35,850 bases of DNA from Kiritimatiellia bacterium (GTDB lineage: Bacteria > Verrucomicrobiota > Kiritimatiellia > RFP12 > UBA1067), in assembly GCA_017520845.1 (NCBI GenBank), contig JAFXEU010000034.1, positions 1 to 35,850 of the forward strand, given 5' to 3'. The translations under genes were made by a program, and so were the position numbers. This document shows positions 2,720-23,352 of this stretch, one piece after another. Under the pieces are notes generated by a model. It was not told where the DNA came from and ran no database searches. It saw only the letters and a program-made list of their open reading frames with translations. Within the stretch, counting starts at the first letter, position 1; each line of letters opens with the position of its first letter.

Positions 2720-2732
2720 TGCGCGGCCCCCT

Positions 2733-5042: not shown

Positions 5043-5221
5043 TCACATGTACAAAAGCCTGCTGTGCGTGTAGTCGGAGTGGTAGGAACTGCCATCCGGC
5101 GAATCGAAGTGGATATCACCCAACACCGGAACGGAGGCAGAATCGCGCCCGACGCACCTGACATTGCAGATATCAACGCCGCTGAGCAGCAAAATACAAA
5201 CTCCCTGCGCGTCATATTCAT
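5043..5221 (-). pseudogene. Frameshifted, truncated Tat-exported metallophosphoesterase remnant
   Basis: ATG 5221 overlaps the stop of the propeller gene (ATGA) and has a GGAG site 6 bases upstream, so it is positioned like a normal operon gene. It opens MNMTRREFVFCCSAALISAM, a twin-arginine leader, and continues to AILPPF. Moving one base at that point gives PVLGDIHFDSPDGSSYHSD, the first metal-binding block (GDxH) of a calcineurin-like phosphoesterase, which stops at TGA 5043 after about 28 residues. The rest of the domain (GNHD, GHxH) is absent, because GH95 starts 21 bases later. A one-base deletion plus a larger deletion best explains this. A sequencing error could explain the frameshift but not the missing 250 or more residues. 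Confidence 0.75.
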
Positions 5222-8783: not shown

Positions 8784-9175
8784 TGGGAGTCATTCCTTTT
8801 TGAGATTTCCAGATATTCAGAGTTTTCGCGAGATGTATCGGAATTCTCGCCGATTAGAATTCTCGCACCCGGCTTCATGAGGACATGATGCCATGTGCCG
8901 GCGAGAACGTTGTAGTATTTGAGGCGTTCCATCGGCACCAACCGTGCGTCGGGGCCGATTGCCAGAGTCGCCTCACCATCCAAAAGAACGAACGTTTCGT
9001 CAGTCGCAAGATGTCTCTCAAGACGAGTGAAGTTCCGCTCGTCGAAATTCGGCGCGTAGCTGATCATGGCAAGCGTCCACTTCGGACCGTCCACAAGCCG
9101 TTTGTAGCCCGCCCCAGAAAACGAGACGACATCTAGTCCCTCCACGGTCTTGTCAATCTCGATTCCTTCGCTCAT
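8780..9175 (-). CDS. Small cupin-fold protein
   Basis: 131 residues from ATG 9175, which overlaps the stop of the upstream glycosidase (ATGA); its own stop overlaps the GH127 ATG in the same way. There is no signal peptide, so it is cytoplasmic, unlike its neighbours. The core ETFVLLDGEATLAIG (60-74), then MERLKYYNVLAGTWHHVLMKPGARILI (82-108), matches a single cupin barrel: a first strand pair with Glu/Gly and a second motif with the paired His of TWHH. Such proteins include sugar isomerases, ureidoglycolate-lyase-like enzymes and ligand sensors. Its role may be in metabolising released sugars, but nothing in the sequence fixes a substrate. A longer in-frame extension upstream is antisense-like low-complexity sequence and was not used. 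Confidence 0.75.
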   Translation of the reverse strand: MSEGIEIDKTVEGLDVVSFSGAGYKRLVDGPKWTLAMISYAPNFDERNFTRLERHLATDETFVLLDGEATLAIGPDARLVPMERLKYYNVLAGTWHHVLMKPGARILIGENSDTSRENSEYLEISKRNDSQ

Positions 9176-12100
9176 TTGGCCGCTGCTCCTTTCGCCCGGA
9201 AGTTGTACATCTCGCATGCGATGCCGCGAAGAGCCTCGACGATTTCCGGGTATGGATTGTCGCAGATGTCGGTCCAGCCTACGGTGATGCCTTCCCCGTC
9301 GAAACGTCCGCTCGTCGCCTGGTCGGAGAATTGGTGCCAGTGGCAGCCGACAACCTGCGGACGCGACAGCGCGTTGCGCACGTATGCTGTCATCCTCGCG
9401 GCGCGGTCGGCCTGGTTCTTCGCCTTGCAGACTCCCGTTCCGAAGGGGCCGCGGTCGTTCGCGCCGAAGTGGAACTCGGTGATGAGAACGGGCCTGTCCA
9501 GCGCCTCCGGCACTTTCCAGCTTGCCAGCGAATCGCGATAGACGTTGAACGTAACGACATCGCAATACCGCCCTGCGGCCTCCACCACCCAAGGCGCCGC
9601 GCCGCCTCCGGCGAAACGGCAACCGAGATACAGCAAGTCAGGATCGAACTCCTTGACGGCTTCGCGCGTCCGGCGGAAATACGTCTCCACAAGCTTGAGC
9701 GTGAACGCCTCCAAATCCGGCTTCGCTTTTGCGCCGGGCAGAAGCGTGGAATGGAGAAGGTCGTCCCAGTCGGCATAGTCCTTCCCCCATGCGGCGGAAA
9801 GCGCGGCGATGTCGCCACCGTATTTAGACTTCATGAACTCCACAAGCGCCTTCTTCGCAGCCTGGTCTGGCGGCGATTGAAGCGTCCATTCGGCAAGCTT
9901 CGCCTTGGTCGGGCCCCAGTCAATCTCGTTGTCCACGGAAAATCCGATGCACCACGGATCTGAAGCCTGCTGCTTGCGCTCTTCAAGAAGCTGGCGGACG
10001 CTCGTCTTGAAGGTTTCGTCCCACGGGTCGCGGAACTTCCACCACTCGCCGTAGCTCGCCTCGATGGGACGCGACTGGCGCTCCAGCCGCTCGACGTATG
10101 GCGTCTTGTCCTTCAGGCAGATTGCGATGTCGGAGGAGGACGAGAGCGTATTCACGCCCCAGCTGCGCAAGCGGCGATGGACGATGTCGGCGAAAGCGTC
10201 GTAGTATCCTTCGCCGTATTTCCTGTAGAGATTGGCGGACGAGAAGTCGTAGATGCGCGTCTGGCCGCGAGCCTCGAAGAATGGGTAAAGGAGCTCGTCG
10301 CGCGTCGTCCAGAACTTCGAGAACGCCGTGGCGTTCTTCGCGCCCGGCTCCGGCGGGAGGTCGGTGAAGAACACGTCGCGGTCGGGTATCGGTACGCCGC
10401 GATGGGGCTTGCCGATATCGCCGTTCATCGGCGTCATGGCCGATGAAGCCGAGACGCGCATCACCCCCCACGACCAGAAGAGATGCCCGTCTGGATCGAC
10501 AAGATACCACTTGCCGTCCACCTTCTCCGTCCTGAATCGCCTGGACTTCGCAAGCTGCGGACCTTCCGCCCATCCGCCGAACCTGTCCCAACCGGCAGGG
10601 CCGGGATTGGCGGCAAGCTCCTTCGCCTCCGTCTTGGCCGCGGCCTTGAGTTCGCCGTCGCAGTGCGTCTTTCCGGGCCATTCGCGATACTTGAACTGGC
10701 CGTACTTGTCGAAGCACGGGAGGAAATCTTCCGTCTTCATCTTCATCCACTCCTCGCTGCCCTCGGGACCGAGCCCTTTCATCCAGTGGCTGAACTGGCC
10801 GGGACGGTAGAGCGAATCGACGATGGCGTAGGGCGTCTCCTTCTTCCAGTCGTAGGCGAGGGGGACCGCGCCGCGCGGCGCAATCATGATCGGCGAATCC
10901 CACATGGGCATGTCCTCCAGCCAGGTGCGATCCTTCTCGCGGGTTAGGCGCGACTCGGGAATCTCGAATACGCGGCCTGTGATCATGTCCACCCACACGA
11001 GGTTGCGCTGTTTTCCCGGCAGCCACATCCTGATGCGGTCGAAACCAAGCTGGTCGGAAGGCCTCGACTCCGCGAACCAGTAGAACCGTATCGGCGTGGA
11101 GTAGCGCGAGAAACGCACGGCCGTCATCTTTCTGCGCCCTTCAGCGCGGGTGTCGAAGCGCTCGACCATCTTGAACGGCACGTCCTCGTGGAACGCCTCC
11201 GGGTGCGCCTCGGAGGTTAGGAACGAAAACACGTTGTTGAGCGCATGGTACGAAGGACGCATATACATCCCCTCGTGCAGATTGTTGCATCTCACGAGCC
11301 CGAAGCTCTGCAGCATGAAGCCGTAGTTCAAGTCCACAAGCGAGAAATACCCGGACGGAATCGCGTGCGCGGCATCCGTCACCGCGCGCCGCAGAAGCCA
11401 CTTCGCCTGCGAGTATTCCGTCCATTCGATGTTCGGTAGGGCGTGGGAGTATTCCAGCTGCGCCGGGCATCCTGATTCGCCTTGCATCACGTCGAACGCG
11501 CCGCTGTAGCTCTTGACGAGTTTCCTGAGCGGCATTGCGCGCGTCCGCCACGCCGGGTCGGGGTTTGCGTCGTAGGGATGGAAAATGAAGTACGACCCAA
11601 GGTCGAGCGCATTCTCCTTCTTGAGTTTCTCAAGGACGCATGTGTATCCCTTCGGGAAGTCGATGGCCGTGCAGTAGATTTTCGCCTCCGGCTGGACGGC
11701 GCGTATCGCCTTGGCCGTCTGGTAAAAAAGCTCGGCGTAGTCAGGACCCTGTCCGAATGGCTCGTTCCAGACTTCCCACTCGCCCACGACATCCTTGTAG
11801 CGACGGACGCATGCCGTGACGTATTTGAGCCAAGCCGCGAACGCCTCCTTGTTCCCGGTGACGTCGCGAACCTTCATGCCCAGGCGGTAGTCTCCTCCGT
11901 ATACCGGGTTGCCGTAGGAGAGGCAAATCCATGGCTGGACGCCGAGCTCGGCCATTTCGCGCACCGGAGCATCAAGCCAATTAAAGTCGTATTCGCCTTT
12001 CTTCTTCTCCGTCTTCGCCCAGCCGGAGAAGAGCCGCCCGTGCTTCGCGCCGAGCCGGGCGACGTATTTCTTCATCGTCCCCCAGCTGGCGTAGTCGCGG

Positions 12101-12345
12101 TCGAGCGTCTCGCAACCTATCGACCAGGAGTTCGCCTTGATGTCCTTTGCCCCGCATGTCGCAAGCAAGCCGATCTGCCTAAGCCCCGGATCGAGCTCGT
12201 TCAGCCGCTTCCACGTCACACTCTTGCCCGTGGGAGCATCGAATGTCTCCAGACGGCCCGGAGCGGCGGACAGGACGCCCGCGCTCCAGACCGACAGAAC
12301 GCAAACGATTGCAAACCTATTCATAACGATTGCAAACCTATTCAT
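9172..12345 (-). CDS. Secreted two-module glycoside hydrolase: GH39/GH5-like plus GH50/GH42-like
   Basis: 1057 residues with a Sec leader following a duplicated start. Module 1 (about 60-500) is a TIM-barrel clan A type: RLFSGWAKTEKKKGEYDFNWLD, acid/base candidate WNEP (E195), FIFHPYDANPD, and nucleophile candidate QGESG (E290), followed by a beta-sandwich-like tail. Module 2 (about 590-1045) begins DGKWYLVDPDGHLFWSWGV (610-628), a hallmark of agarase-like GH50 proteins, with DNEIDWG (acid/base E807), CDVVTFNVY and VLITEFHF (nucleophile E957). Both modules keep both catalytic Glu, so both may be active. Single GH39-like or GH50-like enzymes are usually around half this length. Likely substrates are galactan or xylan types; this is inference. 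ATG 12345 lies 6 bases after the solenoid gene's stop. Confidence 0.8.
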   Translation of the reverse strand: MNRFAIVMNRFAIVCVLSVWSAGVLSAAPGRLETFDAPTGKSVTWKRLNELDPGLRQIGLLATCGAKDIKANSWSIGCETLDRDYASWGTMKKYVARLGAKHGRLFSGWAKTEKKKGEYDFNWLDAPVREMAELGVQPWICLSYGNPVYGGDYRLGMKVRDVTGNKEAFAAWLKYVTACVRRYKDVVGEWEVWNEPFGQGPDYAELFYQTAKAIRAVQPEAKIYCTAIDFPKGYTCVLEKLKKENALDLGSYFIFHPYDANPDPAWRTRAMPLRKLVKSYSGAFDVMQGESGCPAQLEYSHALPNIEWTEYSQAKWLLRRAVTDAAHAIPSGYFSLVDLNYGFMLQSFGLVRCNNLHEGMYMRPSYHALNNVFSFLTSEAHPEAFHEDVPFKMVERFDTRAEGRRKMTAVRFSRYSTPIRFYWFAESRPSDQLGFDRIRMWLPGKQRNLVWVDMITGRVFEIPESRLTREKDRTWLEDMPMWDSPIMIAPRGAVPLAYDWKKETPYAIVDSLYRPGQFSHWMKGLGPEGSEEWMKMKTEDFLPCFDKYGQFKYREWPGKTHCDGELKAAAKTEAKELAANPGPAGWDRFGGWAEGPQLAKSRRFRTEKVDGKWYLVDPDGHLFWSWGVMRVSASSAMTPMNGDIGKPHRGVPIPDRDVFFTDLPPEPGAKNATAFSKFWTTRDELLYPFFEARGQTRIYDFSSANLYRKYGEGYYDAFADIVHRRLRSWGVNTLSSSSDIAICLKDKTPYVERLERQSRPIEASYGEWWKFRDPWDETFKTSVRQLLEERKQQASDPWCIGFSVDNEIDWGPTKAKLAEWTLQSPPDQAAKKALVEFMKSKYGGDIAALSAAWGKDYADWDDLLHSTLLPGAKAKPDLEAFTLKLVETYFRRTREAVKEFDPDLLYLGCRFAGGGAAPWVVEAAGRYCDVVTFNVYRDSLASWKVPEALDRPVLITEFHFGANDRGPFGTGVCKAKNQADRAARMTAYVRNALSRPQVVGCHWHQFSDQATSGRFDGEGITVGWTDICDNPYPEIVEALRGIACEMYNFRAKGAAAK
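12304..12345. repeat. 21-bp perfect tandem duplication containing the start codon
   Basis: 12304-12324 and 12325-12345 are identical. Each copy encodes MNRFAIV, so the glycosidase begins MNRFAIVMNRFAIVCVL and has two in-frame starts (12345 and 12324). Only the first has a purine-rich AGGTAAG stretch nearby, inside the end of the preceding gene. Confidence 0.9.
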
Positions 12346-12351
12346 TTGGAC

Positions 12352-14091
12352 TTACCTGAATATTATTATGAGCCCCGGCGGCACTGCAAGGATTTTCTTT
12401 TTGTCTTCGGAGAGTTTCAGGCGCCAACCGCTGCACACGTCGCCAGCGAGCGTCGGGAGTCCTTCTAGTGTGGCGTTGCTGCCATCTGCCACCTCGGCAA
12501 ATACATACTTCGCGCCGCTGGGCCTGTTGTTGAACTTGAGCGTACAACCGGAGAATGTCACCTTGCCAGAGCCGGTCACTGTAATCGACCCTCCATCCGT
12601 GACGTTGAACGTGCAGTTTGTCACGGTCTGGTTGTACGTTTCCGTTGCGAGCGTCAAACCGCCCGCCTTCAGCTGGATGTTCGCGAGGTCTTTGAGGATC
12701 GTATCCGCCTTGCGCGCTTGCAGCGTGCCGCCGTCGAACTCGACAAGCACAGCCGTCCCTTGGTATTTCTTAACGTGGTTGGCGATGAGCGTGCCGCCGT
12801 CGCGCAGGATAAGCGTCCCCTTTCCATTCGAATTGAAGCCAAGGTTCACGTTGCCACGGATTGTCACGACGCCCGAGCCGCTGATGTCGAGAATGCCGGT
12901 GCCGTCGTTGCCGATCATGATGCCCGTGTTCGTCGTCTCGAACGTTCCGCCGGAGATGTTGTATCTGCCGGTGTTGGATGCCGTGAATCCAAAATAGGGG
13001 AGCGTGTTGTTGCCATTATCACTCGCCATCTTGACCGAACCGCCGGTCTGGTTGAAGAAGTTTGTGGCGGTGTTGGAGGCGGTGCCGATCTTGAAATGCT
13101 TGTTGAACACGACTTCGCCGCCGGACATCTCGACCGTGCCCGCCTTCGCCGCGCCGACTCGCGTCTCGCCTTTCGCGTTCACCTTGCCGCCTGTGATTGT
13201 CAGCGTGCCGACGCCATTCATGCCGACGCACAACGCCCCGACCGTCTCAAGCTCGCCGGTTCCGGACAGCGTCAGGCTGCCCGTTCTGTTGTGGCCGATG
13301 TTCAGCGTGTTGGTTACCGAGAACAATCCGCCCGACAGTTCATATTCTCCCTTGGCGCCTATGCCGATTTGTGCAATCTTTACGGCATTCGTGCCGCCAG
13401 TCTGGATGTATTTGGCCTCTGAACTCCCGCCGACGTTCAATGTGTTGGCATATACAGTGCCGCCGCTCTGATCGGCTTGCGCGTAATAGCCCGCACCGCC
13501 GGACTCGTTGCCCATGTTGAATGTAGTGCTCACATTGAGTTTTCCGTTTTCGGAGATTTCAAGATAGCCGTATGTCTTGCTGGAGGATGCGTCGGGTCCT
13601 TTTGACGCCAGCCGGAGATTTACCGCAGTCACCTCGCCGTCGCCCGCGATGACAAGTTTGCCTGTCGTGCCGTGGATGCCGACAAACGCGCTGCCGGTCG
13701 TCGCCTTCAGCGTCCCGTTGGAGATGATGTATGTGCCTGGACAGTTGTCGAGCCGCCCGATGCGCAGTCCGTCGTTGCCGGAGACGGTGAGTGTACCGTT
13801 CGTCTGGATTATAAAACCCTCATCGTGCGTCTGCACCGTGGAGCCGTGGCCGCCGATGACGAGAATGGAGTATTGCGTCTCTCCGGCCGGCACGATGGCA
13901 GGCTTGGCGGCATTCGCGTGGACGATTGCCGTATCAGATGAGCCGGGAGTAGTGTCGCCCGACCAGTTTTCGCGGGTACTCATCAGGTCGTCGGCACCGC
14001 CGCCGTCCCATGTCCGTTCCGCCGCTGAAGCAACCAATGCGCAGCAGCACGCGGCCGCCGCGAGAATCGATTTGTGCTTCATGGTTTTCAT
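12352..14091 (-). CDS. Secreted autotransporter-like beta-solenoid repeat protein
   Basis: 579 residues with a Sec leader (about 1-23, ending SAA). It opens ERTWDGGGADDLMSTRENWSG, the usual start of autotransporter-associated beta-strand proteins. It then carries many 20-25 residue rungs of the type GxGxLxISGG...GxxxxIG: TLTVSGNDGLRIG, KLVIAGDGEVTA, SLTLSGTGELETVGALCVG, TLTITGGKVNAKGETRVG, TVEMSGGEVVF, ILDISGSGVVTIRGNVNLG. No beta-barrel translocator and no PEP-CTERM tail are present; it ends PPGLIIIFR. This suggests a free or loosely attached surface solenoid, perhaps a glycan scaffold for the hydrolases. ATG 14091 is chosen because AAAGGA lies 8 bases upstream; a second ATG at 14082 arises from a 9-bp duplication. 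Confidence 0.75.
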   Translation of the reverse strand: MKTMKHKSILAAAACCCALVASAAERTWDGGGADDLMSTRENWSGDTTPGSSDTAIVHANAAKPAIVPAGETQYSILVIGGHGSTVQTHDEGFIIQTNGTLTVSGNDGLRIGRLDNCPGTYIISNGTLKATTGSAFVGIHGTTGKLVIAGDGEVTAVNLRLASKGPDASSSKTYGYLEISENGKLNVSTTFNMGNESGGAGYYAQADQSGGTVYANTLNVGGSSEAKYIQTGGTNAVKIAQIGIGAKGEYELSGGLFSVTNTLNIGHNRTGSLTLSGTGELETVGALCVGMNGVGTLTITGGKVNAKGETRVGAAKAGTVEMSGGEVVFNKHFKIGTASNTATNFFNQTGGSVKMASDNGNNTLPYFGFTASNTGRYNISGGTFETTNTGIMIGNDGTGILDISGSGVVTIRGNVNLGFNSNGKGTLILRDGGTLIANHVKKYQGTAVLVEFDGGTLQARKADTILKDLANIQLKAGGLTLATETYNQTVTNCTFNVTDGGSITVTGSGKVTFSGCTLKFNNRPSGAKYVFAEVADGSNATLEGLPTLAGDVCSGWRLKLSEDKKKILAVPPGLIIIFR

Positions 14092-14228: not shown

Positions 14229-16073
14229 TTATTTCATCTCCCCGGTAGCTTCTTTTAGATTCATCCGCGCCGCCGCGATGGAAGCCGGCGGCAGCGTGAT
14301 TTCAACAAAACCGTCCGCTGCGGCAACCTCCAGCGGACGCCTTGCGTATCTCGAGCCCGAAGACAGCCCTGTCGGAACGAGCAGCTCGCCACTGCACATT
14401 GCCGCTTGGCCGCCTGTCGGGATCCTGAATGTGTGGGGCCGCACGGTCGAAAAGTTGTACATCGTCACGTAGCGCGAGCCGTCGGAATGGTCTGTGACGA
14501 AAGCGTCCTGGTCGTCCTGGACGGACGGAATGCCTCCCACGTGTCCCTTCCAAAGCCTCATCGCCTCGCCGGCTGACGACAGGTGGCTCTCAAAGGGCGA
14601 AACGACTATCGCCTTCTCGTTGATTGCCTGGAAGTAGCAGACAAGCCCAATTCCGAGCCGCTCCCAGTCGCGCATCAGGCGCGTGAGGAACTTGGCCGTG
14701 TAGAGTCCCTCGATGATGCCCTCTTCATGATACCACGTCTCCCAAATATTCCATTCGTCGCAGGATATGGCGATTTCGCGGGGCAGTTTCGCGCGAAAAT
14801 CCCCGAGACGGTCTATCGCCTTGTCCGCGCACTTCGAGACGCTGGCGTAGAATGCGGCCGTGCGCTCCGGCGTGGAGAAATCGAACACGCCCGGATGTTC
14901 GTAGCGATGGTAGGAGCAGATTTGCGACACGTCGGCGAGTTTCGTCGCCGCGCCATCGATCCACTTCTTCCCTCCCCACGGATAGAGCCCCGACTGCACG
15001 AGCGTGATGGAGGGATCCTCCCTGAGCATCGCCTCGGCGTGCGGGCGCACCATCTTGACGTAGCCCTCCGGCCCCTTCGGACCTTCCATGTGGCCGTAGC
15101 CCATTTCGTTGCCGAGCGACCACATCTTCACCCGCCCCTTGCACGCCTTGAGCCAATCGACCGACGACTCCGGCGTTTCCCAGACGGCGTTGATGGTGAA
15201 AATGGGCTTCGCGCCGATGCGCTCGCACAGGGCGATGACGTCCTCCATGCCGATGTCGTTGGAATCGTAGCCGAACGAATACGGCTGCGTCTCGATTTCA
15301 GTGTAGGACTGGAGCGGCGCACGCTCGTCCCTGTCGGCGATAAGAGAGTCGCGCCAGCGGTATTCGCCCGCGAAGTTCCCGCCGGGCCAGCGGATGTAGG
15401 AGGCACCAATTTCCTGCAGATGCCTGACGACATCCGCCCTCATGCCGCGGAAATTGTCGTCCGGCATGACCGACACCGCGCCGACGACACCGTACTGCCG
15501 CCCTTTGACGCAAATCGAAACCTCGGCCTCGCAGTCCTGTTCCGGCGTGAAGGAGAACTCGATCCGGACAAACTCTTTCGGCGACTTCGTGCGCACCGCC
15601 GCCTCGTGTTCCGCAATGTTTCTGCCGCCGGACGCGACGCGGAGGACGAACGTCATGTCTTCGTCGTGCAAGGAACTTGCCCGGATGCGGAAAGTGTGCG
15701 AAACGCCTCCGCGCAAGCCAATGCCTCGCTGGACAATTCCAGCCTCGCCGGCCTCGTCCAGCGAACCAATCAACTGCGAGTGGATTTCGTTCATGCGAAA
15801 CATTTTCGACTTCGCCGCGTGGCGCGTGCAGCCATAGTCTGGCATTTGATAGACCGCCTTCGCGCCGCACGCCTCCCACATCGCAGCCACCCCAACAGGC
15901 GAGGGTTTTCCGGCGAACTTCCGGTTGCGCACCAATTCCGCAGAAAGCCCGCCCTGCACCGCCGAACGCGTATGCTCGATGTTCTGTCCGAACAATTCCG
16001 CCGGAACCGCCGCCGCGAATACGCCGGACGTGTTGGCCGCAAAGACAGCAAAGATCGCCAATGTTTTCTTCAT
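14229..16073 (-). CDS. GH51-family alpha-L-arabinofuranosidase
   Basis: 614 residues with a Sec leader (1-20). Family landmarks: ELFGQNIEHT (26-35) and GGLSAELVRNRKF at the N-terminus, YIRWPGGNFAGEYRWRDSL (226-244), WSLGNEMGYGHM (318-329) carrying the acid/base Glu E323, SYHRYEHPG, and SCDEWNIWETWY (437-448) carrying the nucleophile E440. The C-terminal beta-sandwich ends with a LPPASIAAARMNL-type strand. The enzyme should be exported and release terminal alpha-L-arabinofuranosyl residues from arabinan, arabinoxylan or arabinogalactan. It is the promoter-proximal gene of the long minus-strand operon, with GGAG about 10 bases before ATG 16073 and an extended -10 element about 110 bases upstream. 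A short upstream frame ends over its start codon (ATGA). Confidence 0.9.
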   Translation of the reverse strand: MKKTLAIFAVFAANTSGVFAAAVPAELFGQNIEHTRSAVQGGLSAELVRNRKFAGKPSPVGVAAMWEACGAKAVYQMPDYGCTRHAAKSKMFRMNEIHSQLIGSLDEAGEAGIVQRGIGLRGGVSHTFRIRASSLHDEDMTFVLRVASGGRNIAEHEAAVRTKSPKEFVRIEFSFTPEQDCEAEVSICVKGRQYGVVGAVSVMPDDNFRGMRADVVRHLQEIGASYIRWPGGNFAGEYRWRDSLIADRDERAPLQSYTEIETQPYSFGYDSNDIGMEDVIALCERIGAKPIFTINAVWETPESSVDWLKACKGRVKMWSLGNEMGYGHMEGPKGPEGYVKMVRPHAEAMLREDPSITLVQSGLYPWGGKKWIDGAATKLADVSQICSYHRYEHPGVFDFSTPERTAAFYASVSKCADKAIDRLGDFRAKLPREIAISCDEWNIWETWYHEEGIIEGLYTAKFLTRLMRDWERLGIGLVCYFQAINEKAIVVSPFESHLSSAGEAMRLWKGHVGGIPSVQDDQDAFVTDHSDGSRYVTMYNFSTVRPHTFRIPTGGQAAMCSGELLVPTGLSSGSRYARRPLEVAAADGFVEITLPPASIAAARMNLKEATGEMK

Positions 16074-16216
16074 AGCGCATCAATCTCCGTATTGTTGAAT
16101 TTGAATCCTGCCGCATGGCGCATGACGAAACCCTGTCCGTCCTTGCGGTCCCACGCAATCGTTTTCTCATCGCCGACCCATATTATAGCATATCGCGCCG
16201 ACTGATGAGACTCCAT
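16070..16216 (-). other. Protein-like short frame ending in the GH51 start codon (ghost C-terminus or leader peptide)
   Basis: The frame reads AIIWVGDEKTIAWDRKDG and continues GFVMRHAAGFKFNNTEIDAL to a TGA that overlaps the GH51 ATG (ATGA). The composition is that of a normal protein. Its only full-length ATG (16216) lies inside the operator, upstream of the -10, so it would not be transcribed from that promoter. A second ATG, 8 bases after AGGG, would give a 17-residue leader MRHAAGFKFNNTEIDAL coupled to GH51. It is either the tail of a deleted gene or a short coupled leader. Confidence 0.4.
16182..16190 (-). promoter_or_regulatory. Extended -10 promoter of the glycan-degradation operon
   Basis: The minus strand reads TGCTATAAT, continuing ATGG. 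A consensus -35 is missing at the correct distance (TCTCAT at 17 bp), as expected for an activated promoter. The 12-base stretch TGCTATAATATG is identical to the -10 region of the SDR operon. Confidence 0.6.
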
Positions 16217-16245
16217 TCGCGAAGACATAAGCATCCTATTTGCGA
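16212..16245 (-). promoter_or_regulatory. Probable XylR-type operator upstream of the GH51 operon
   Basis: On the minus strand, half-site 1 is TCGCAAATAGGATGC starting at 16245. Half-site 2 is TCGCGAATGGA starting at 16222, exactly 23 bp later. Both half-sites match the copy at 18959-18992, while the bases between them do not. The element ends 24 bases before the -10. Confidence 0.65.
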
Positions 16246-16291
16246 AATTCGGGGGGAGTCGTCTTGAGGTCTGTCCCCGCGAATCATCGCC

Positions 16292-16390
16292 AAACTCGTC
16301 GTAAAAAGTGTAGCATTGGCGTTAAAACTCGTCTGGAAAAATGTAGAACCAGCATTGAAACTCGTCAGGAAAAATGTTATACTCTTACCC
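16292..16390 (+). repeat. Three 33-bp tandem promoter-like repeats before the ATPase gene
   Basis: AAACTCGTC recurs at 16292, 16325 and 16358, exactly 33 bases apart. Each is followed by an A-rich tract and a TG(T)TA(G/T) block. Units differ at several positions; the last has the best -35/-10 pair. The 33-bp spacing (about three helical turns) puts all copies on one face of the DNA. Confidence 0.75.
16355..16383 (+). promoter_or_regulatory. Sigma70-type promoter of the AAA ATPase gene
   Basis: TTGAAA (16355-16360), a 17-bp spacer, then TATACT (16378-16383) preceded by TGT as an extended -10. The ATPase ATG is 30 bases downstream, with AAGGGAAG in between. Confidence 0.65.
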
Positions 16391-16413
16391 GAACTCAACA
16401 AGGGAAGCGTGAA

Positions 16414-17727
16414 ATGGAGCGGAAAATCTACAAAAGCCTCTTGAAATGGAAGCATTCTAATCTGCGTAAGCCGCTCATCCTGCGCGGCGCAAGGCAGGTC
16501 GGAAAGACATGGCTTTTGAAGGAATTCGGCAGACGCGAATACAAGTCTTTCGTCTATGTGAACTGCGACAAGGATGCGTTCGCCGCCGACCTCTTCAGGG
16601 ATTATGACGTGAAGAGGATTCTTCTTGCAATCGAGGCGCATACGGGCGTCAAGGTGCGCGAAGGCGAAACCCTTGTCGTTTTCGACGAGCTTCAGGAAAC
16701 TCCGCGCGGAATCGGCGCACTGAAGTATTTCTGCGAGGACGCCCCTGATATCCACGTCGCGGCGGCAGGCTCGCTCCTGGGAATAACGCTTCATGCCGGC
16801 ACATCCTTCCCTGTCGGAAAGGTGGACGAATTGACGCTGCGTCCGCTCGACTTCTGTGAATTCCTTGCCGGGACAGGCGACGCCCCGCTGGCGAAACTTC
16901 TCACGGACGGTGAACCGTCTGCCATCGACACGATGCGAGAGCCGCTTATTGAACGGCTTCGACGGTTTTTCTTCGTCGGCGGAATGCCTGAAGTCGTTTC
17001 GGCGTTCGCGGCGGAATGCAGTCTCGCCGAAGTGCGACGGCTCCAGCGCGCAATCGTCGACTCCTATCAGCAGGACATCTCCAAGCACGCGCCCGCCAAT
17101 GAAGTGCCGCGCATCAATCTCGTCTGGCGATCCCTCATATCGCAACTCGCCAAGGAAAACAGAAAATTTGTCTATGGCGCGGTCAAGCACGGCGGACGCG
17201 CCAAAGAATTCGAGACGGCCATACAATGGCTCGTCGACGCGGGAACCGTCAACCGCGTCACACGGGTGAACAAGCCCGTCGCGCCGCTTGCATTCTACGA
17301 AAACTTCAATGCGTTCAAGCTCTTTCCGCTCGACTGCGGGCTGATGGGCGCGATGGCCGATACGCCCGCCGCGTCCATTCTCGCCGGCAATGCCGGATTT
17401 GATGAATACAAGGGCGCGTTCACAGAGGCATTTGTCCTGTCCGAAATGCTTGCCGCCCGGGATTCGCGCGTATTCTACTTCAGCGCTTCCGATTCGACGG
17501 TGGAAATCGACTTTATCGTCCAGAATGGCACAGCCGTCGTCCCGGTGGAAGTCAAGGCGGCGGAAAACCTCCAGTCCAAATCCCTGCGGACGTTCGTCAC
17601 GGCCCATGAAGGTCTCAGGGGCGTACGCTTCTCCCTCTCACCGCATAGAGACCAGGGCTGGATGGAGAATGTTCCTCTCTACGCAGTGAGCAGATTCTTC
17701 AGCGACAACAGCGAAACGGGGGAATGA
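16414..17727 (+). CDS. AAA family ATPase with DUF4143/PD-(D/E)xK-like C-terminus
   Basis: 437 residues from ATG 16414, chosen for the AAGGGAAG site and because the promoter ends just before it; an in-frame extension to 16240 would run through the promoter repeats. Walker A is GARQVGKT (25-32) and Walker B LVVFDE (87-92), followed by AAAGSLLG (117-123) and LRPLDFCEFL (142-151), the family's typical order. The C-terminal part (about 355-395) has VEIDFIV and VVPVEVKA, an E-x-D...E-x-K pattern like PD-(D/E)xK nucleases (D366, E379, K381). These proteins are widespread in multicopy in gut and environmental bacteria, and their function is unknown. The gene stands alone on its strand and convergent to the regulator, so a link to the sugar operons is not implied. 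Confidence 0.85.
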   Translation: MERKIYKSLLKWKHSNLRKPLILRGARQVGKTWLLKEFGRREYKSFVYVNCDKDAFAADLFRDYDVKRILLAIEAHTGVKVREGETLVVFDELQETPRGIGALKYFCEDAPDIHVAAAGSLLGITLHAGTSFPVGKVDELTLRPLDFCEFLAGTGDAPLAKLLTDGEPSAIDTMREPLIERLRRFFFVGGMPEVVSAFAAECSLAEVRRLQRAIVDSYQQDISKHAPANEVPRINLVWRSLISQLAKENRKFVYGAVKHGGRAKEFETAIQWLVDAGTVNRVTRVNKPVAPLAFYENFNAFKLFPLDCGLMGAMADTPAASILAGNAGFDEYKGAFTEAFVLSEMLAARDSRVFYFSASDSTVEIDFIVQNGTAVVPVEVKAAENLQSKSLRTFVTAHEGLRGVRFSLSPHRDQGWMENVPLYAVSRFFSDNSETGE

Positions 17728-17747
17728 CGGGCCGCGCGCCCCGTTTC
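17713..17747 (+). terminator. Hairpin at the ATPase stop codon, possible terminator
   Basis: GAAACGGGG (17713-17721) and CCCCGTTTC (17739-17747) are perfect 9-bp arms around a 17-base loop containing the TGA stop. No U-tract follows, so intrinsic termination is uncertain. Confidence 0.35.
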
Positions 17748-17787
17748 CGTGTTCCCTGTCGTATGCGGGGACAGCCGCGCAAGCGCG

Positions 17788-18939
17788 CTATTTCGCGGCT
17801 TCACGCCAGCCGGACATCGTCTGGCCGGTCTGTGCCTTGAAGAACTTGCGGAGCGAATTCGGATTCTCGAAGCCGCAGAAGTCGGAAATCGCCTTGAGCG
17901 GCAGCGTCCCCTCGCGCAGCAGGTCCTTCGCGCGCGCCAGCTGGATCGCGTGCATCTCTTCGAGAACCGAATGGCCGGTGGCCTTCCTGAAGCGCATCTC
18001 GGCCTGACGCCGCGAACATGGGAAACGCTCCAGCACGCGCGCCGCCGTGAGCCCCGCGCACGCCTCCCGCCGGATGAGGTCGAGCGCGTCCGCGACAGCC
18101 GGATCGTGCGCGCGCAGCCGGCGCGTCGACGCGCGCGGCACCACGGCGAGCGGACCGAACGTCCGGCGGCGCGCGCCTCGGAACTTCTCGCGGTCCCTGA
18201 GCCGCGCGGCGAGGAGGAGCGCGGCCAGTTCGCCGCCGCGCCGGAAATCCGGCTTGATCGAGCTGAGTGTCGGCCGGGTGTGCTCGCAGATGTCGCGCGC
18301 GTCATCCACCCCGATGACGATCAGCTCGTCCGGAACCTTGACCTGCGCGAAGACCGCCGCCGACAAAACCTCCGCAGCGACGCCGTCGTTGGCCGCGAAG
18401 AGCGCGCAGGGCTTGGGCAGCGCCGCGACAAACGCACGCAGCTCGCGCGTGTAGCGGGTGGGGTCCGCGGGCGACGGCCGCCCGGTGAACACGCGGCAGC
18501 CGCGTCCGTTCAGCGACAGCGCCGAGACAAAGCCGCGCTCGCGCGCCGCACTCCAGAACCGCGGCTCCGGATACGGCACGAAGGCGAAGGCCGTCGCGTC
18601 GGTGCGCAGGAGCTCGCGCGCGGCCATCTGCGCGGTCGCCGCGGAATCGTGCGTGACGCAGAAGGCGTTCCGGGGCAGACATGACGGATCGTGGTCGAAG
18701 AACACGACCGGCAGACCGCCGAAGACGGCCGGCGCGACCGCCGCCGCCGTGCCGCCGCATTCGACAATCGCACCGACCGGGTGCCAGAATTCGACCAGCG
18801 CCGCGATCCGCTTCGCCGACGGCAGACCGGGAACGGTCTGCACCAGCCAGCCGCATTTCGCGGCGACATCCTGGACGCCGCCGAGCTTTTCCGCCGCATT
18901 TGTCTTGAACTGTGACTGAAAGTAGAGAATCGTCTCCAT
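17788..18939 (-). CDS. XylR-type transcriptional regulator (LacI-like sugar-binding domain plus AraC HTH)
   Basis: 383 residues from ATG 18939 (METILYFQSQF); ATG 18945 is an alternative two codons earlier. There is no N-terminal LacI HTH. Residues about 1-265 form a type I periplasmic-binding fold (VGAIVECGG, GLPVVFFDHDP, LFAANDGVAAEVL, LIVIGVDDARDICEHTRPTLSSI). Residues about 280-383 carry an AraC-type double HTH (LIRREACAGLTAARVLERFPCSRRQAEMRFRKATG in part, then AISDFCGFENPNSLRKFFKAQTGQTMSGWR). This is the architecture of E. coli XylR, which binds direct-repeat operators and activates on sugar binding. It is divergent from the SDR operon. A matching operator in front of GH51 suggests that it also controls the hydrolase operon. 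The inducer is unknown. Confidence 0.88.
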   Translation of the reverse strand: METILYFQSQFKTNAAEKLGGVQDVAAKCGWLVQTVPGLPSAKRIAALVEFWHPVGAIVECGGTAAAVAPAVFGGLPVVFFDHDPSCLPRNAFCVTHDSAATAQMAARELLRTDATAFAFVPYPEPRFWSAARERGFVSALSLNGRGCRVFTGRPSPADPTRYTRELRAFVAALPKPCALFAANDGVAAEVLSAAVFAQVKVPDELIVIGVDDARDICEHTRPTLSSIKPDFRRGGELAALLLAARLRDREKFRGARRRTFGPLAVVPRASTRRLRAHDPAVADALDLIRREACAGLTAARVLERFPCSRRQAEMRFRKATGHSVLEEMHAIQLARAKDLLREGTLPLKAISDFCGFENPNSLRKFFKAQTGQTMSGWREAAK

Positions 18940-18951
18940 GCGCATTAGTCT

Positions 18952-18981
18952 ATCATATTCGCAAACAGGATGCAATGTAAA
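18952..18981 (-). promoter_or_regulatory. Tentative promoter of the regulator gene
   Basis: On the minus strand TTTACA, an 18-bp spacer and TATGAT. The -10 is only 12 bases from ATG 18939 and no Shine-Dalgarno is visible, so the transcript would be nearly leaderless. One operator half-site lies in the spacer, consistent with autoregulation. Confidence 0.35.
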
Positions 18982-18992
18982 TCGCAAACGGA
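18959..18992 (+). promoter_or_regulatory. Probable XylR-type operator between regulator and SDR operon
   Basis: Half-site 1, TCGCAAACAGGATGC, starts at 18959 and half-site 2, TCGCAAACGGA, at 18982, a 23-bp direct repeat. It abuts the SDR promoter's -35 and ends 24 bases before its -10, as at the GH51 promoter. Confidence 0.7.
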
Positions 18993-18993
18993 A

Positions 18994-19022
18994 TTACAAC
19001 CAGCCGTGCCGTCTGCTATAAT
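18994..19022 (+). promoter_or_regulatory. Promoter of the SDR-MFS-dehydratase-lactonase operon
   Basis: TTACAA (18994-18999), a 17-bp spacer, then TATAAT (19017-19022) with an extended TGC before it. The SDR ATG follows 52 bases later. Confidence 0.65.
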
Positions 19023-19074: not shown

Positions 19075-19860
19075 ATGGGCAGGTTTGACGGCAAGGTCGT
19101 CCTGGTGACGGGCGGCAACAGAAACACGGGACTCGATCTCGTCGAGCGGTTCGCCCGCGACGGGGCGAAGGTCTACATGTGCGGGTTGAGCGAAGCCTCC
19201 ACCGCCAAGGGAGCCGCCGAGATCAAGGCGCGCGGGCTGGACGGCGTAATTTCGCAGGCGTGCGACATCTCCGATGCCGCGCAGGTCGCGGCGCTGTTCG
19301 ACACGATCGAACGCGACGCGGGGCGGCTGGACATCCTCATCAACAACGCCGCGAACCAGGGGCTCGGCCACGGCGGGCCGCTGGAGATGGATGCCGAAAG
19401 ATTCTGGGACGTTCTCAAGACGAATGTCGTCGGCGGCTTCCGCATGACGCAGACGGCGTGCAACCGCTTCTTCATGAAGCAGGAATCGCGCGGCGTCGTC
19501 GTCTTCCTCTCGTCCAACACCGCCATGCGCGCGATCCGCCACCGCACCGCCTACTGCGCCTCCAAGGGCGCGATCAACTCCATGGTGCGCGCGCTCGCGC
19601 TCGACCTCGCGCCGCTCGGCATCCGAGTCAACTGCTGCGCGCCGGGCTACATCTACACCGAACGCTGGCTCACGCTCGATCCGGAAAAGGCCGCACGCCG
19701 CCGCCTCAACTGTCCGCTCCGGCACGAGGCGAAAGGCGCCGACATCGCGAACGTCGTCGCGTTCCTCGCCTCGGACGATTCCGCGAACATGACGGGCGAG
19801 ATCGTCACGTGCGACGCGGGCTGCTCGTGCCAGCACATGCCGGAGGACGTGGATGTCTAA
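19075..19860 (+). CDS. SDR-family NAD(P)-dependent oxidoreductase
   Basis: 261 residues from ATG 19075, with AAGGAAG just upstream; the in-frame extension to 18970 would cross the promoter. It is a classical short-chain dehydrogenase: cofactor-binding TGGNRNTG (12-19), acidic CDIS after beta-4, NNA (90-92), LSS (145-147) and YCASK (Y160, K164). The C-terminus GEIVTCDAGCSCQHM is a variant of the usual TGQ...VDGG ending. As first gene of an operon with a lactonase and a sugar-acid dehydratase, it probably oxidises a free aldose to its lactone, although SDRs also oxidise sugar acids. It overlaps the transporter gene by 8 bases. Confidence 0.88.
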   Translation: MGRFDGKVVLVTGGNRNTGLDLVERFARDGAKVYMCGLSEASTAKGAAEIKARGLDGVISQACDISDAAQVAALFDTIERDAGRLDILINNAANQGLGHGGPLEMDAERFWDVLKTNVVGGFRMTQTACNRFFMKQESRGVVVFLSSNTAMRAIRHRTAYCASKGAINSMVRALALDLAPLGIRVNCCAPGYIYTERWLTLDPEKAARRRLNCPLRHEAKGADIANVVAFLASDDSANMTGEIVTCDAGCSCQHMPEDVDV

Positions 19861-21118
19861 GCATTACAAATGGCTGCTCATCGGAATGCTCAGCTGCGCG
19901 TTCTTCTTCCATCAGGCGGATCGGGCGCTCTTCGGGCTGCTGACCATTCCGATTCAGGACGAACTGAATCTCACGGACGTTCAGATCGGGTGGATCAACA
20001 CGACGCTGTCGTGGACGCTCGCGGCAATGACGGTCGTCGCGGGCTTTCTGGGCGACCGCTTCTCGCGCAAGCGGATCATCACACTGTCGCTGATCGCCTG
20101 GTCGCTCATGACCGTGTGCATGGGCTTTATCGGCGGATTCCTCGGAGCGCTCTTCTTCCGCTCGATCGCGACCGGCGTCGGCGAGAGCTTCTACGCCCCG
20201 AGCGCCTACGCGCTCATCGCCGTTCACCACAAGGAGACACGTTCCGTCGCGCTCTCCATCCACCAGGCGGCGCTCTATGTGGGGCTCATGGTTTCGGGGC
20301 TGATCGTCGCGCGGGCGCTCGGACTGCTCGGCACGTGGCGCAACGTCTTCATCGCGTTCGGCGCGGCCGGCTGCGCGCTGGGGATCTTCTTCATCTGGGG
20401 TCTGAAGGACAATGACTCGCGCAGAGACGCAGAGACGCCGAGAGAGGCAACGCGCCGCGCCTCTGCGCCGCCACGCGACAAGACGTCTCTCACGGCAGGC
20501 TTGAAGGCCTACTTCTGCAACCCGTCTGCGCTGTGCGCCACGGCGGGGTTCGTCGCCATCGTCTTCGTCAACAACGCTTATCTCTTCTGGGCGCCGAAGT
20601 TCGCGGCCGAGAAATTCGCGATCGGCGTGGGCGAGGCCGGCAAGGGCGTGATGCTCGGACACCACCTTTTCGCGTTTGCGGCGATTCTCGCGGGCGGCAT
20701 CATCACCGACCGTTTCGTGGCGAAGATGCCGCGCTTCCGACTCGGCTTCCAGGCGGCAGCCCTTCTCTGCGGCGCACCCGCGCTGCTGTGGATCGGCCGC
20801 GCGCCGTCCTTCACCGCGCTTCTGATCGCCGCGAGCGTCTACGGCGTCTTTCGCGGCTTCTTCGAGGTCAACACGCACGCATCGCTCTTCGATGTCGTCG
20901 CGCCGCAGCACCGCTCGACGGCGGTCGGGCTGCTCAACATGATCGCCTTTTTCTTCGGCGGGCTCTCCGGCGTGGCGATGGGGGCGCTGTCGCACAGCCG
21001 GGGCGTGCACGGCTTCGAGATCGGCTTCGGCATCATGGCGGGCACCTACGCGCTCGGCGCGGCGCTTCTGGCGTTCAGCTTCTTCTTCACGTTCAACAAA
21101 GATCGAATCGCGGAATAA
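19853..21118 (+). CDS. MFS transporter, probably for a sugar or sugar acid
   Basis: 421 residues with about 12 hydrophobic segments. After helix 1 (YKWLLIGMLSCAFFFHQADRALF in part), the loop between helices 2 and 3 carries GFLGDRFSRKR, the signature MFS motif A, and helix 4 follows RSIATGVGESFYAPSAYALI, as in anion:cation symporter-type carriers. The second half has GGIITDRFVAKMPRFR. The central cytoplasmic loop (about 183-212, RRDAETPREATRRASAPPRD) is unusually Arg/Ala/Pro-rich and encoded by a GCAGAGACGCAGAGACGC repeat, which looks inserted. Operon position suggests uptake of the monosaccharide or acid processed by the adjacent enzymes. Transport direction and substrate are inferred. Confidence 0.85.
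   Translation: MSKHYKWLLIGMLSCAFFFHQADRALFGLLTIPIQDELNLTDVQIGWINTTLSWTLAAMTVVAGFLGDRFSRKRIITLSLIAWSLMTVCMGFIGGFLGALFFRSIATGVGESFYAPSAYALIAVHHKETRSVALSIHQAALYVGLMVSGLIVARALGLLGTWRNVFIAFGAAGCALGIFFIWGLKDNDSRRDAETPREATRRASAPPRDKTSLTAGLKAYFCNPSALCATAGFVAIVFVNNAYLFWAPKFAAEKFAIGVGEAGKGVMLGHHLFAFAAILAGGIITDRFVAKMPRFRLGFQAAALLCGAPALLWIGRAPSFTALLIAASVYGVFRGFFEVNTHASLFDVVAPQHRSTAVGLLNMIAFFFGGLSGVAMGALSHSRGVHGFEIGFGIMAGTYALGAALLAFSFFFTFNKDRIAE
20416..20475. repeat. CGCAGAGACGC-type repeat inside the MFS central loop
   Basis: CGCGCAGAGACGCAGAGACG is followed about 40 bases later by CCTCTGCGCCGCCACGCG, a partly eroded inverted counterpart. It keeps the frame and encodes a low-complexity basic loop. Confidence 0.5.
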
Positions 21119-21144: not shown

Positions 21145-22311
21145 ATGAAAATCAAATCGATCAAGACATTCGCAATCGACTGCTTCCGGACGAACTGGGT
21201 GTTCGTCAAGGTGATGACCGACGAGGGCCTCTCCGGCATCGGCGAGGGCACGCTCGAATACAAGGAAAACGCCCTTCTCGGCGCGCTGGCCGACCTGGAG
21301 CACGCACTTGTCGGGAAAGATCCGTTCGACACCGAATGGATCTTCCACGAGAACTACCGCGACGCCTACTGGCGCGGCGGGGCGGTGCTCATGAGCGCGC
21401 TTTCGGCGGTTGACATGGCGCTGTGGGACATCAAGGGAAAGGCGCTCGGCCTTCCCGTCTGGAAGCTCCTCGGCGGCAAGTGCCGCGACGGCGTTCCCTG
21501 CTATGCCAACTGCTGGTTTTCGGGCGCGAAGGAGCCGGAGGAATTCGCCGCGAAGGCCGAGGCCGCAGTCACCGCCGGATTTCGCGGGCTCAAGTGGGAC
21601 CCGTTCGGCAAGAACTACCGGCAGCTGCCGCCGGAAGACTTCAAGAAGGCGCTCCGGTGCGTCGCGGCGGTGAAGGCCGCAACGGAGGGCAAGGCCGAAA
21701 TCCTGATCGAATGTCACGGACGCTTCGACGTGCCGACCGCGCTCCGCGTCTGTCACGCGCTGGAGGAGTTTTCGCCGTACTGGGTGGAAGAGCCCGTCAT
21801 CCCGGACACGCTGCGCGCCCTGGCCGACGTCCGTTCGCGCGTGCGCGTGCCGATCGCGTGCGGCGAACGCCTCTACACGACGCAGCAGATCCTCGACGCG
21901 ATCGAACTGCGCGCGTGCGACTACCTGCAGCCCGATTCGTCGCACGCGGGCGGACTGACCGGCATGAAGCAGATCGCCGCCCTTTGCGACGCACACCACA
22001 TCCCCTTCTGCGCGCACAATCCGTCCGGCCCCGTGGCGAACGCCGTCACGCTGGCGCTCGGCGTCTCGACGCCCGGCTACTGCATCCACGAGACGCTGTT
22101 CGACGACGTGCCGTGGCGCAAGGACGTGATCGACGAGGACGTGCGCTTCGCGGACGGCCTCATGTATCCCTCGGACCGCCCCGGCCTCGGCATCGAGCTG
22201 AACGAAGAGGCTGCCGCCGCGCATCCGAAGGCCGACCACTGGCTCCGGCACTACGTCGGCACGCTGACCAACATCCGGCCGCCGGACAGCGTGAAGTATT
22301 ACCACGGCTAA
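21145..22311 (+). CDS. Enolase-superfamily sugar-acid dehydratase (mandelate racemase/galactonate dehydratase group)
   Basis: 388 residues from ATG 21145; earlier in-frame codons overlap the MFS gene out of frame and are not protein-like. The N-terminal capping domain (1-115) ends ALWDIKGKALGLPVWKLLGG. The barrel has IECHGRFD (E189, H191), WVEEPV (E215), ACGER (E241), QPDSSHAGG (D264, H267) and FCAHNPSGP (H291). These are the metal-ligand and acid/base positions of the galactonate-dehydratase type, in which a His pair removes water from an aldonic acid to give a 2-keto-3-deoxy acid. The first ligand is Glu rather than the usual Asp. Candidate substrates include galactonate, fuconate and arabinonate, with no way to choose. 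No KDG-type aldolase is in the window. Confidence 0.88.
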   Translation: MKIKSIKTFAIDCFRTNWVFVKVMTDEGLSGIGEGTLEYKENALLGALADLEHALVGKDPFDTEWIFHENYRDAYWRGGAVLMSALSAVDMALWDIKGKALGLPVWKLLGGKCRDGVPCYANCWFSGAKEPEEFAAKAEAAVTAGFRGLKWDPFGKNYRQLPPEDFKKALRCVAAVKAATEGKAEILIECHGRFDVPTALRVCHALEEFSPYWVEEPVIPDTLRALADVRSRVRVPIACGERLYTTQQILDAIELRACDYLQPDSSHAGGLTGMKQIAALCDAHHIPFCAHNPSGPVANAVTLALGVSTPGYCIHETLFDDVPWRKDVIDEDVRFADGLMYPSDRPGLGIELNEEAAAAHPKADHWLRHYVGTLTNIRPPDSVKYYHG

Positions 22312-22332
22312 ACCATGACGGGACTTCTGGCC

Positions 22333-23352
22333 ATGACAATTTTTCTCGGCTCCTACACGGACGATACGCACCCGAACGGACTGAAGACAATCGAGCTGGA
22401 TGAAGCATCCGGCGCGATGGTCGTCGTCGCCGACTATCCCGTCTTGAACGCACTCTATCAGGCGCTTTCGCCGGACGGGAAGTGGCTCTATACCTGCACG
22501 GGCGAAGGGCTTGCCGCGTTCGCCATCGGCGCAGACGCGTCGTTGACGCGCCGCGACGCGGTAGCGCTCGGCACTTGCGTCTGCCACGTTGCCGCGCGGA
22601 CGGACCGCGTCGTCTTCGCCGACTATCTCGGCAGCTTCGCGGGCTCTGTCGCGGTTGCGGACGGCACGTTCGGCGAACCCGTCATCCACCGGCACAGCGG
22701 CAGCGGGACGAATCTCCCGCGCCAGAACGCCGCGCACTGCCATCAATCGTGCTCGCTGCCCGATGGTTCGGGCTATGTCGTCTGCGATTTGGGGCTGGAT
22801 GAACTTGTCGAATATCCAAGCGGACGCCGGTTCAAGACATCGCCCGCCGGCGCGGGGCCGCGCCACCTCCTCTTCCACCCGAACGGGCGTCTCGCCTTTC
22901 TCGTCTCGGAGCTCGGCAATCTCGTCTCATCGCTCGCGTGGAATCCGGTCGACGGCTTCCGTCTTCTCGATCTACTGCCAACGCTGGAGCGGGCGGCGCT
23001 CCCCGTCGGCTCCGTGATCGGCACGACCGGCACGGATCTCGCCGCCGCGATCCGCTTCACGCCCGACGGGAAGCGCCTCGTCGTCTCGAACCGCGGGGAA
23101 AATTCGCTTGTCGTCTACGACTTCGACGAATCGACGGGCAAACTCGCATTCAAATCGCGCTCGCTCCTTCCTGGTTCGTGGCCGCGCGATTTCATTTTCG
23201 TCACCGACACGCTCGCACTCGTCGCGCTGGAGCGCTCGGGTGAAGTCATCTCGCTCCGCTACGACCCGGCAGCCGGCGCCTTCACGCCACTCGCCACCCT
23301 TGGCGGCCTCTTCCGCCCCGTCGCGCTGACCACCCGCCCGACCTTGGCATAG
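22333..23352 (+). CDS. Lactonase, seven-bladed beta-propeller (YbhE/Pgl type)
   Basis: 339 residues from ATG 22333, preceded by GGGA at a suitable distance; ATG 22315, four bases after the dehydratase stop, is an alternative adding six residues. The sequence has the repeated blade pattern of 6-phosphogluconolactonase-like propellers: TIFLGSYTDDTHPNGLKTIELDEASG at the start, ALSPDGKWLYTC, AGPRHLLFHPNGRLAFLVSELGNLV in part, IRFTPDGKRLVVSNRGENSLVVYDFD and WPRDFIFVTDTLALVALE. Such enzymes open sugar lactones. With the SDR and dehydratase it completes a plausible oxidation, hydrolysis and dehydration sequence. No leader, so cytoplasmic. It is the last gene of the operon, convergent with ruvA 76 bases away; that gap shows no clear terminator. 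Confidence 0.85.
   Translation: MTIFLGSYTDDTHPNGLKTIELDEASGAMVVVADYPVLNALYQALSPDGKWLYTCTGEGLAAFAIGADASLTRRDAVALGTCVCHVAARTDRVVFADYLGSFAGSVAVADGTFGEPVIHRHSGSGTNLPRQNAAHCHQSCSLPDGSGYVVCDLGLDELVEYPSGRRFKTSPAGAGPRHLLFHPNGRLAFLVSELGNLVSSLAWNPVDGFRLLDLLPTLERAALPVGSVIGTTGTDLAAAIRFTPDGKRLVVSNRGENSLVVYDFDESTGKLAFKSRSLLPGSWPRDFIFVTDTLALVALERSGEVISLRYDPAAGAFTPLATLGGLFRPVALTTRPTLA

Follow-up and report, generated by a model that had tools for sequence, protein, structure and literature searches.

The window analysed here is the 35,850-nucleotide contig JAFXEU010000034.1 (assembly GCA_017520845.1), one whole contig of the 2.7-Mb genome of an uncultured Kiritimatiellia bacterium. It contains a gene for a XylR-type regulator and two similar 34-bp elements, operator 1 between the regulator and a short-chain dehydrogenase/reductase (SDR) gene, and operator 2 in front of a GH51-like gene. 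One sugar-sensing XylR-type protein very probably binds the same double site, with half-sites spaced by 23 bp, before a polysaccharide-cutting operon and a sugar-acid catabolism operon. We are confident, judging from the sequences, that both operators are sites of the neighbouring regulator, which would activate both operons in a sugar-dependent manner and negatively regulate its own gene. The sites, their geometry, rarity and recurrence, and their co-variation with the helix-turn-helix (HTH) domains are directly established. Genome-wide statements rest on pattern and profile searches, and the genomes are drafts.

Two operators with the same geometry

The elements and their target promoters are located as follows.

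18959-18992, + strand: operator 1 element, between the XylR-type regulator and the SDR gene
18959..18973, + strand: operator 1 half-site 1, TCGCAAACAGGATGC (from sequence; kept in orthologous loci)
18982..18996, + strand: operator 1 half-site 2, TCGCAAACGGAATTA, 23 bp from half-site 1
18994-18999, + strand: weak -35 TTACAA of the SDR operon, 17 bp upstream of the extended -10, overlapping half-site 2
19014..19022, + strand: extended -10 of the SDR operon, TGCTATAAT (from sequence)
16245-16212, - strand: operator 2 element, in front of the GH51-like gene
16231..16245, - strand: operator 2 half-site 1, TCGCAAATAGGATGC (from sequence and genome pattern search)
16208..16222, - strand: operator 2 half-site 2, TCGCGAATGGAGTCT (from sequence and genome pattern search)
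16182..16190, - strand: extended -10 of the hydrolase operon, TGCTATAAT (from sequence)

In both operators the half-sites start 23 bp apart. When the two are aligned segment by segment from half-site 1, identity is 14/15 in half-site 1 and 10/15 in half-site 2, while the 8-bp spacer has none (0/8). The stretch from the operators to the extended -10 is identical at 8 of 17 positions and TGCTATAATATG at all 12, and the 40-bp flanks (7/40 and 11/40) are at background. An earlier note on this DNA had described two 34-bp elements with half-sites 23 bp apart and a diverged 8-bp spacer, with conservation limited to half-sites, spacing and -10; the coordinates and the identities bear this out. The note had also put 24 bases between each operator and the same promoter sequence. 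The distance is indeed the same in both, but from the operator end at GGA it is 21 bp to TGCTATAATATG, and 24 is the distance to TATAAT. The -10 sequences of both target promoters are near consensus, and their -35 boxes are poor (TCTCAT and TTACAA).

Such pairs are rare, with 0.02 expected by chance in the window and 2 found. Across the genome only operators 1 and 2 match at up to 3 mismatches (reversed-pattern control, 0), and the whole-genome repeat search that the note had proposed returned two strong copies, both in the window, and not many unrelated ones. With a looser pattern, 12 genomes gave mostly chance-like 3-mismatch matches, in some genomes comparable with the reversed controls.

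The regulator gene is read away from operator 1.

17788..18939, - strand: XylR-type regulator, LacI/periplasmic-binding-like sensor with C-terminal AraC-type double HTH (Pfam Peripla_BP_3 3.2e-24, HTH_18 1.4e-14)
about 17791-18105, - strand: AraC-type double HTH of the regulator (Pfam HTH_18)

Its best PDB match is E. coli XylR (4fe4, 4.6e-28), with homology detectable over sensor and HTH, and this match together with the domain layout agrees with the previous assignment to the XylR type.

A 23-bp repeat beside related regulators

Upstream regions were taken from homologous regulators of the same genus and order; the organisms of the related records are mostly named Kiritimatiellae or Verrucomicrobia, many of them from ruminant guts. 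In a motif-free test of self-similarity by offset, 23 bp stands out, with a mean of 8.78/12 for the 23 closest against about 6 at other offsets. Excluding the orthologues of the window regulator (n=62), the value at 23 bp is 8.0, compared with 6.33 (sd 0.13) in shuffles. A repeat at 23 bp together with a -10 at the right distance is found in 34 of 93 regions (shuffles, mean 0.85), while the same criterion at other spacings from 17 to 31 bp is satisfied by 0-6 of 93. In the 34 qualifying regions, TATAAT follows half-site 2 at 33-36 bp, an interval fixed by the search. A direct repeat with exactly 23-bp spacing, set at a constant distance from an extended -10, is a general feature beside such regulators in this order.

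Across related loci the 5' part of the half-site is mostly CGCAA, and the 3' part varies by group (GGGATGC, GGAGAT, TCGTTTGCA, TACAGTC, AGTGCCGC or TTCTCACG); in some groups the half-sites read GCGGTTTTGG throughout. The spacing test in other classes, where close homologues are few, gave no clear result. A general search for second operators near other regulators, limited by flank length, yielded few candidates.

Each HTH varies with its own box

We compared recognition helices with half-site boxes in 35 regulators by partial Mantel tests in which sensor-domain distance was removed. Distance in the first recognition helix correlates with distance in the 5' box (r=0.45; 0.42 after correction, p=0.0005), and no correlation with the 3' box is left after the sensor-domain correction (p=0.31). 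The second helix behaves the other way round, correlating with the 3' box (0.54; r=0.29 after correction, p=0.0015) and not with the 5' box (p=0.88). This double dissociation is a prediction of head-to-tail AraC-type binding, and it ties the DNA sites to these regulators.

Both operators in other species

A profile of eight operator-promoters, and a position matrix made from it, were run on genomes and loci. Three other species, G038, G096 and G009, with orthologues 84-98% identical to the window regulator, also have both operators, and in each the second lies downstream of the regulator. Operator 1 is present in G038 (98%) and G096 (84%), where a second operator follows the regulator at 1.9 kb and 1.8 kb, respectively. 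The regulator gene of G009 (98%) is broken by a contig boundary: one contig carries operator 1, and the other carries the second operator, 2.6 kb past the regulator. Neither the second site of G096 nor that of G009 contributed to the profile, yet with the matrix they score 36 and 39; the maximum in 2 Mb of random DNA is 11.3. The comparison with relatives suggested in the earlier note thus finds the sites again beside orthologous regulators.

The genes behind the second site vary: GH51 in the window, GH28 in G096, and in G009 a protein with an F5/8 C domain. A 67-bp block of G038, confined to operator and promoter, matches the window, and both its flanks are unrelated.

The regulator's own promoter

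18947..18955, - strand: extended -10 of the regulator promoter, TGATAGACT, 7 nt from the ATG and 6 bp from half-site 1

Because this extended -10 lies only 6 bp from half-site 1, operator 1 would cover the -35 region of the regulator promoter; it overlies the regulator's own promoter, and autorepression is therefore predicted. Most related loci have an extended -10 near the regulator start (a score of at least 9 in 32 of 39 loci, and in 2 of 39 after shuffling). The same genome also contains a paralogue 78% identical to the window regulator (G000:C45:167700-168842; hereafter the C45 paralogue). There the divergent gene and its -10 are lost, while the half-sites and the regulator's own -10 are kept, a pattern that would fit a second, autoregulatory role of the site.

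XylR-type regulator genes look leaderless: of 124, 44 have an extended -10 at 6-9 nt upstream of the start codon, with the peak at 7 nt, and a weaker peak at this position is seen for other genes. The transcript of the window regulator is likewise predicted to be leaderless. Upstream of XylR-type regulators, most gaps between the regulator's own -10 and half-site 1 belong to one of three classes, 5-7, 16-17 or 30-34 bp.

Proposed mechanism and alternative explanations

We propose that one double-HTH domain binds each half-site, with the first HTH reading the 5' box CGCAA and the second the 3' box GGATGC. Two subunits would sit head to tail, 23 bp apart, and the proximal one would contact the -35 region. 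Relative to the predicted start site, half-site 2 runs from about -47 to -33 and shares bases with the weak -35; this placement over the -35 is that of class II AraC-family activators. The sugar-bound regulator would recruit RNA polymerase to two promoters with a good extended -10 and a poor -35, one leading to the secreted hydrolases of the GH51 operon and the other to the SDR, the transporter, the dehydratase and the lactonase. The same binding at operator 1 would cover the regulator's back-to-back promoter and produce negative autoregulation. Binding, activation rather than repression, and autorepression are inferred, and a released sugar or oligosaccharide would be the inducer.

The prediction of the earlier note, that one protein controls both depolymerisation and catabolism, gains support from the rarity of the sites, their recurrence beside orthologues, the XylR type of the regulator and the 23-bp family pattern, while its 'one protein' part is left unproved by the 78%-identical paralogue. 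Several observations weigh against the proposal. About 60% of the homologues' upstream regions have no recognisable repeat by these criteria, including close ones (L126, L136), and CGCAA helped to guide the choice of half-site register for the Mantel test. G028 (71%) and G035 (69%) have operator 1 only, with no second site nearby. In G038 the second site precedes a set of MR_MLE, major facilitator superfamily (MFS) and SDR genes, the enolase-superfamily gene first and not a hydrolase, so the link to depolymerases is not universal. Lastly, the C45 paralogue has almost the same recognition helices as the window regulator (SRRYAEMRFKKA / FENPNSLRKFFRAQ against SRRQAEMRFRKA / FENPNSLRKFFKAQ).

The near-identical helices of this paralogue, and its own sites (L035), which are similar to the window operators, lend themselves to a picture in which more than one XylR-type protein acts on both sites, for example the window regulator and the C45 paralogue, so that two sugars or regulators feed the same promoters. 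We regard such cross-regulation as conceivable but rather unlikely. No second close paralogue of the regulator was found in G038, G009 or G096, and because these genomes keep both operators nonetheless, the window orthologue alone suffices there; moreover, the window operators resemble each other more than they resemble the C45 sites. A repressor relieved by its sugar at both promoters would also be compatible with half-site 2 touching the -35 region and with -10 sequences near consensus. It is improbable in our view, as the -35 boxes are poor and the operator is placed ahead of the core promoter, as for class II AraC-family activators. Furthermore, E. coli XylR and Vibrio XylRA are activators (PMC12125979).

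That the similarity is the leftover of a recent promoter duplication, free of shared regulatory meaning, is hardly credible. Both promoters do have the same -10 and spacing, but identity is confined to the half-sites and the -10, and the 23-bp geometry occurs with different sequences at many other regulators, while both sites recur in other species. The duplication was rejected on the segment-wise identities. Activation of both operons by the neighbouring XylR-type regulator, with autoregulation, remains the reading we prefer.

Comparison with known systems

E. coli XylR (xylAB / xylFGH) has the same domain layout as the window regulator and direct-repeat operators before divergent sugar operons. 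However, its best xylA repeats (GTGAATTATCTCAAT / GTGAAATAACATAAT) are 21 bp apart, in contrast to 23 in the window and family-wide; its half-sites are AT-rich, whereas those of the window read CGCAA..GGATGC; and xylR is not back to back with its operator, as the window regulator is. Neither xylA nor xylB (xylose isomerase and xylulokinase) is among the genes identified next to the window operators. By spacing and by xylA/xylB association, the window regulator does not look like an orthologue of E. coli XylR, the xylose regulator. The operator, with two direct-repeat half-sites apparently upstream of the targets' -35, does look like that of a XylR-type regulator. AraC araI1-I2 and RhaS-type class II sites likewise consist of half-sites in head-to-tail order, of which the proximal one adjoins or overlaps the -35, although the araI half-sites are 21 bp apart and the sensor domain of AraC and RhaS is different.

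In the beta-1,3-xylan locus of Vibrio, XylRA is a XylR-type activator with direct-repeat sites at several promoters, as shown by isothermal titration calorimetry (ITC), electrophoretic mobility shift assay (EMSA) and deletion (PMC12125979). It couples depolymerases, transport and sugar catabolism (PMC12125979), as we propose for the window. It is gammaproteobacterial, with xylose as effector and an isomerase pathway, whereas the predicted regulated set of the window consists of SDR, MR_MLE and lactonase genes.

Genes around the operators

19075..19860, + strand: SDR, first gene of the operator 1 operon (Pfam adh_short_C2 1.9e-51)
19853..21118, + strand: MFS transporter (best NCBIfam subfamily D-galactonate transporter, below cut-off)
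21145..22311, + strand: enolase-superfamily (MR_MLE) sugar-acid dehydratase-like enzyme (Pfam MR_MLE_C 2e-63; PDB dehydratases); start taken from the G038 orthologue
22315..23352, + strand: seven-bladed beta-propeller lactonase, 6-phosphogluconolactonase-like (Pfam Lactonase 1.3e-53)
14229..16073, - strand: GH51-like alpha-L-arabinofuranosidase, first gene of the operator 2 operon (PDB 4atw, 3ug3, about 1e-18)
12352..14091, - strand: repeat-rich secreted or autotransporter-like protein (TIGR04393 repeat, weak)
9172..12345, - strand: protein with GH50 agarase-like C-terminal half (PDB 4bq2, 1.8e-71)
6384..8783, - strand: GH127 beta-L-arabinofuranosidase-like protein with F5/8 C domain (Pfam 1.3e-107)
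5218..6387, - strand: BNR-repeat protein (weak match)
2733..5021, - strand: GH95 family protein (Pfam 2.1e-86)
1250..2881, - strand: metallophosphatase (domain match)
16414..17727, + strand: AAA_14/DUF4143 ATPase between the regulator and operator 2 (Pfam)

The genes adjoining both operators are sugar-related by domain content and are candidate targets of the regulator. For the GH51-like protein, the Pfam scan gave no match and NCBIfam ArfA matched at 1.9e-18, below cut-off. The hydrolases hint at arabinose, fucose/galactose or agar-like sugars as substrate. The GH50 agarase-like half adjoins GH51, GH127 and GH95 genes in what is probably a ruminant-gut bacterium. HSD17B14 is an L-fucose dehydrogenase (PMC11293516); matches of the SDR to it were no stronger than to other SDRs.

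ATPase genes beside the regulators

The ATPase at 16414..17727 probably does not belong to the regulon. In each of the five loci with two sites, an ATPase gene of the DUF4143 or ATPase_2/DUF234 type separates the regulator from the second operator:

window 16414-17727
L047 4333-5682
L131 7297-8667
L140 411-1736
L035 11257-12654

They belong to different subfamilies, and the window copy is in opposite orientation. Some of the genomes have many ATPases of this kind; in G096 there are 34 DUF4143 matches. In a subgroup of DUF4143/AAA_14 genes, the start or the -10 is immediately preceded by a direct repeat in three copies, spaced exactly 33 bp apart (window 16292-16377; L131 upstream of 7297; L234, L235, L251, L254 and L259 upstream of the ATPase). 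Their sequence differs gene by gene, for example TGGTGAAAATGT three times in L235, and 33 bp is the best triple spacing among those tested (mean 13.6 vs about 10-11.7). This triple repeat looks like a gene-specific operator.

Implications

E. coli XylR and Vibrio XylRA are known examples of this kind of switch. Less expected are the constant 23-bp spacing and the way in which HTHs and boxes co-vary pair by pair across a lineage. The evidence is evenly balanced on a broader proposal, that XylR-type regulators of this Kiritimatiellae order share one rigid plan, with an exact 23-bp distance between half-sites and a fixed position relative to an extended -10; that the first HTH and 5' box, and the second HTH and 3' box, evolve as separate pairs; and that the second operator serves as a promoter cassette whose downstream carbohydrate genes are swapped from species to species. 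If true, operators would be readable from protein sequence for hundreds of regulators. In summary, the window holds a candidate regulon from a lineage of gut bacteria that degrade polysaccharides and are represented here by metagenome assemblies. Together, the constant 23-bp layout and the HTH-box correspondence would allow operators and targets of many uncharacterised XylR-type regulators to be predicted, and would offer a natural series for the study of how AraC-type specificity evolves.

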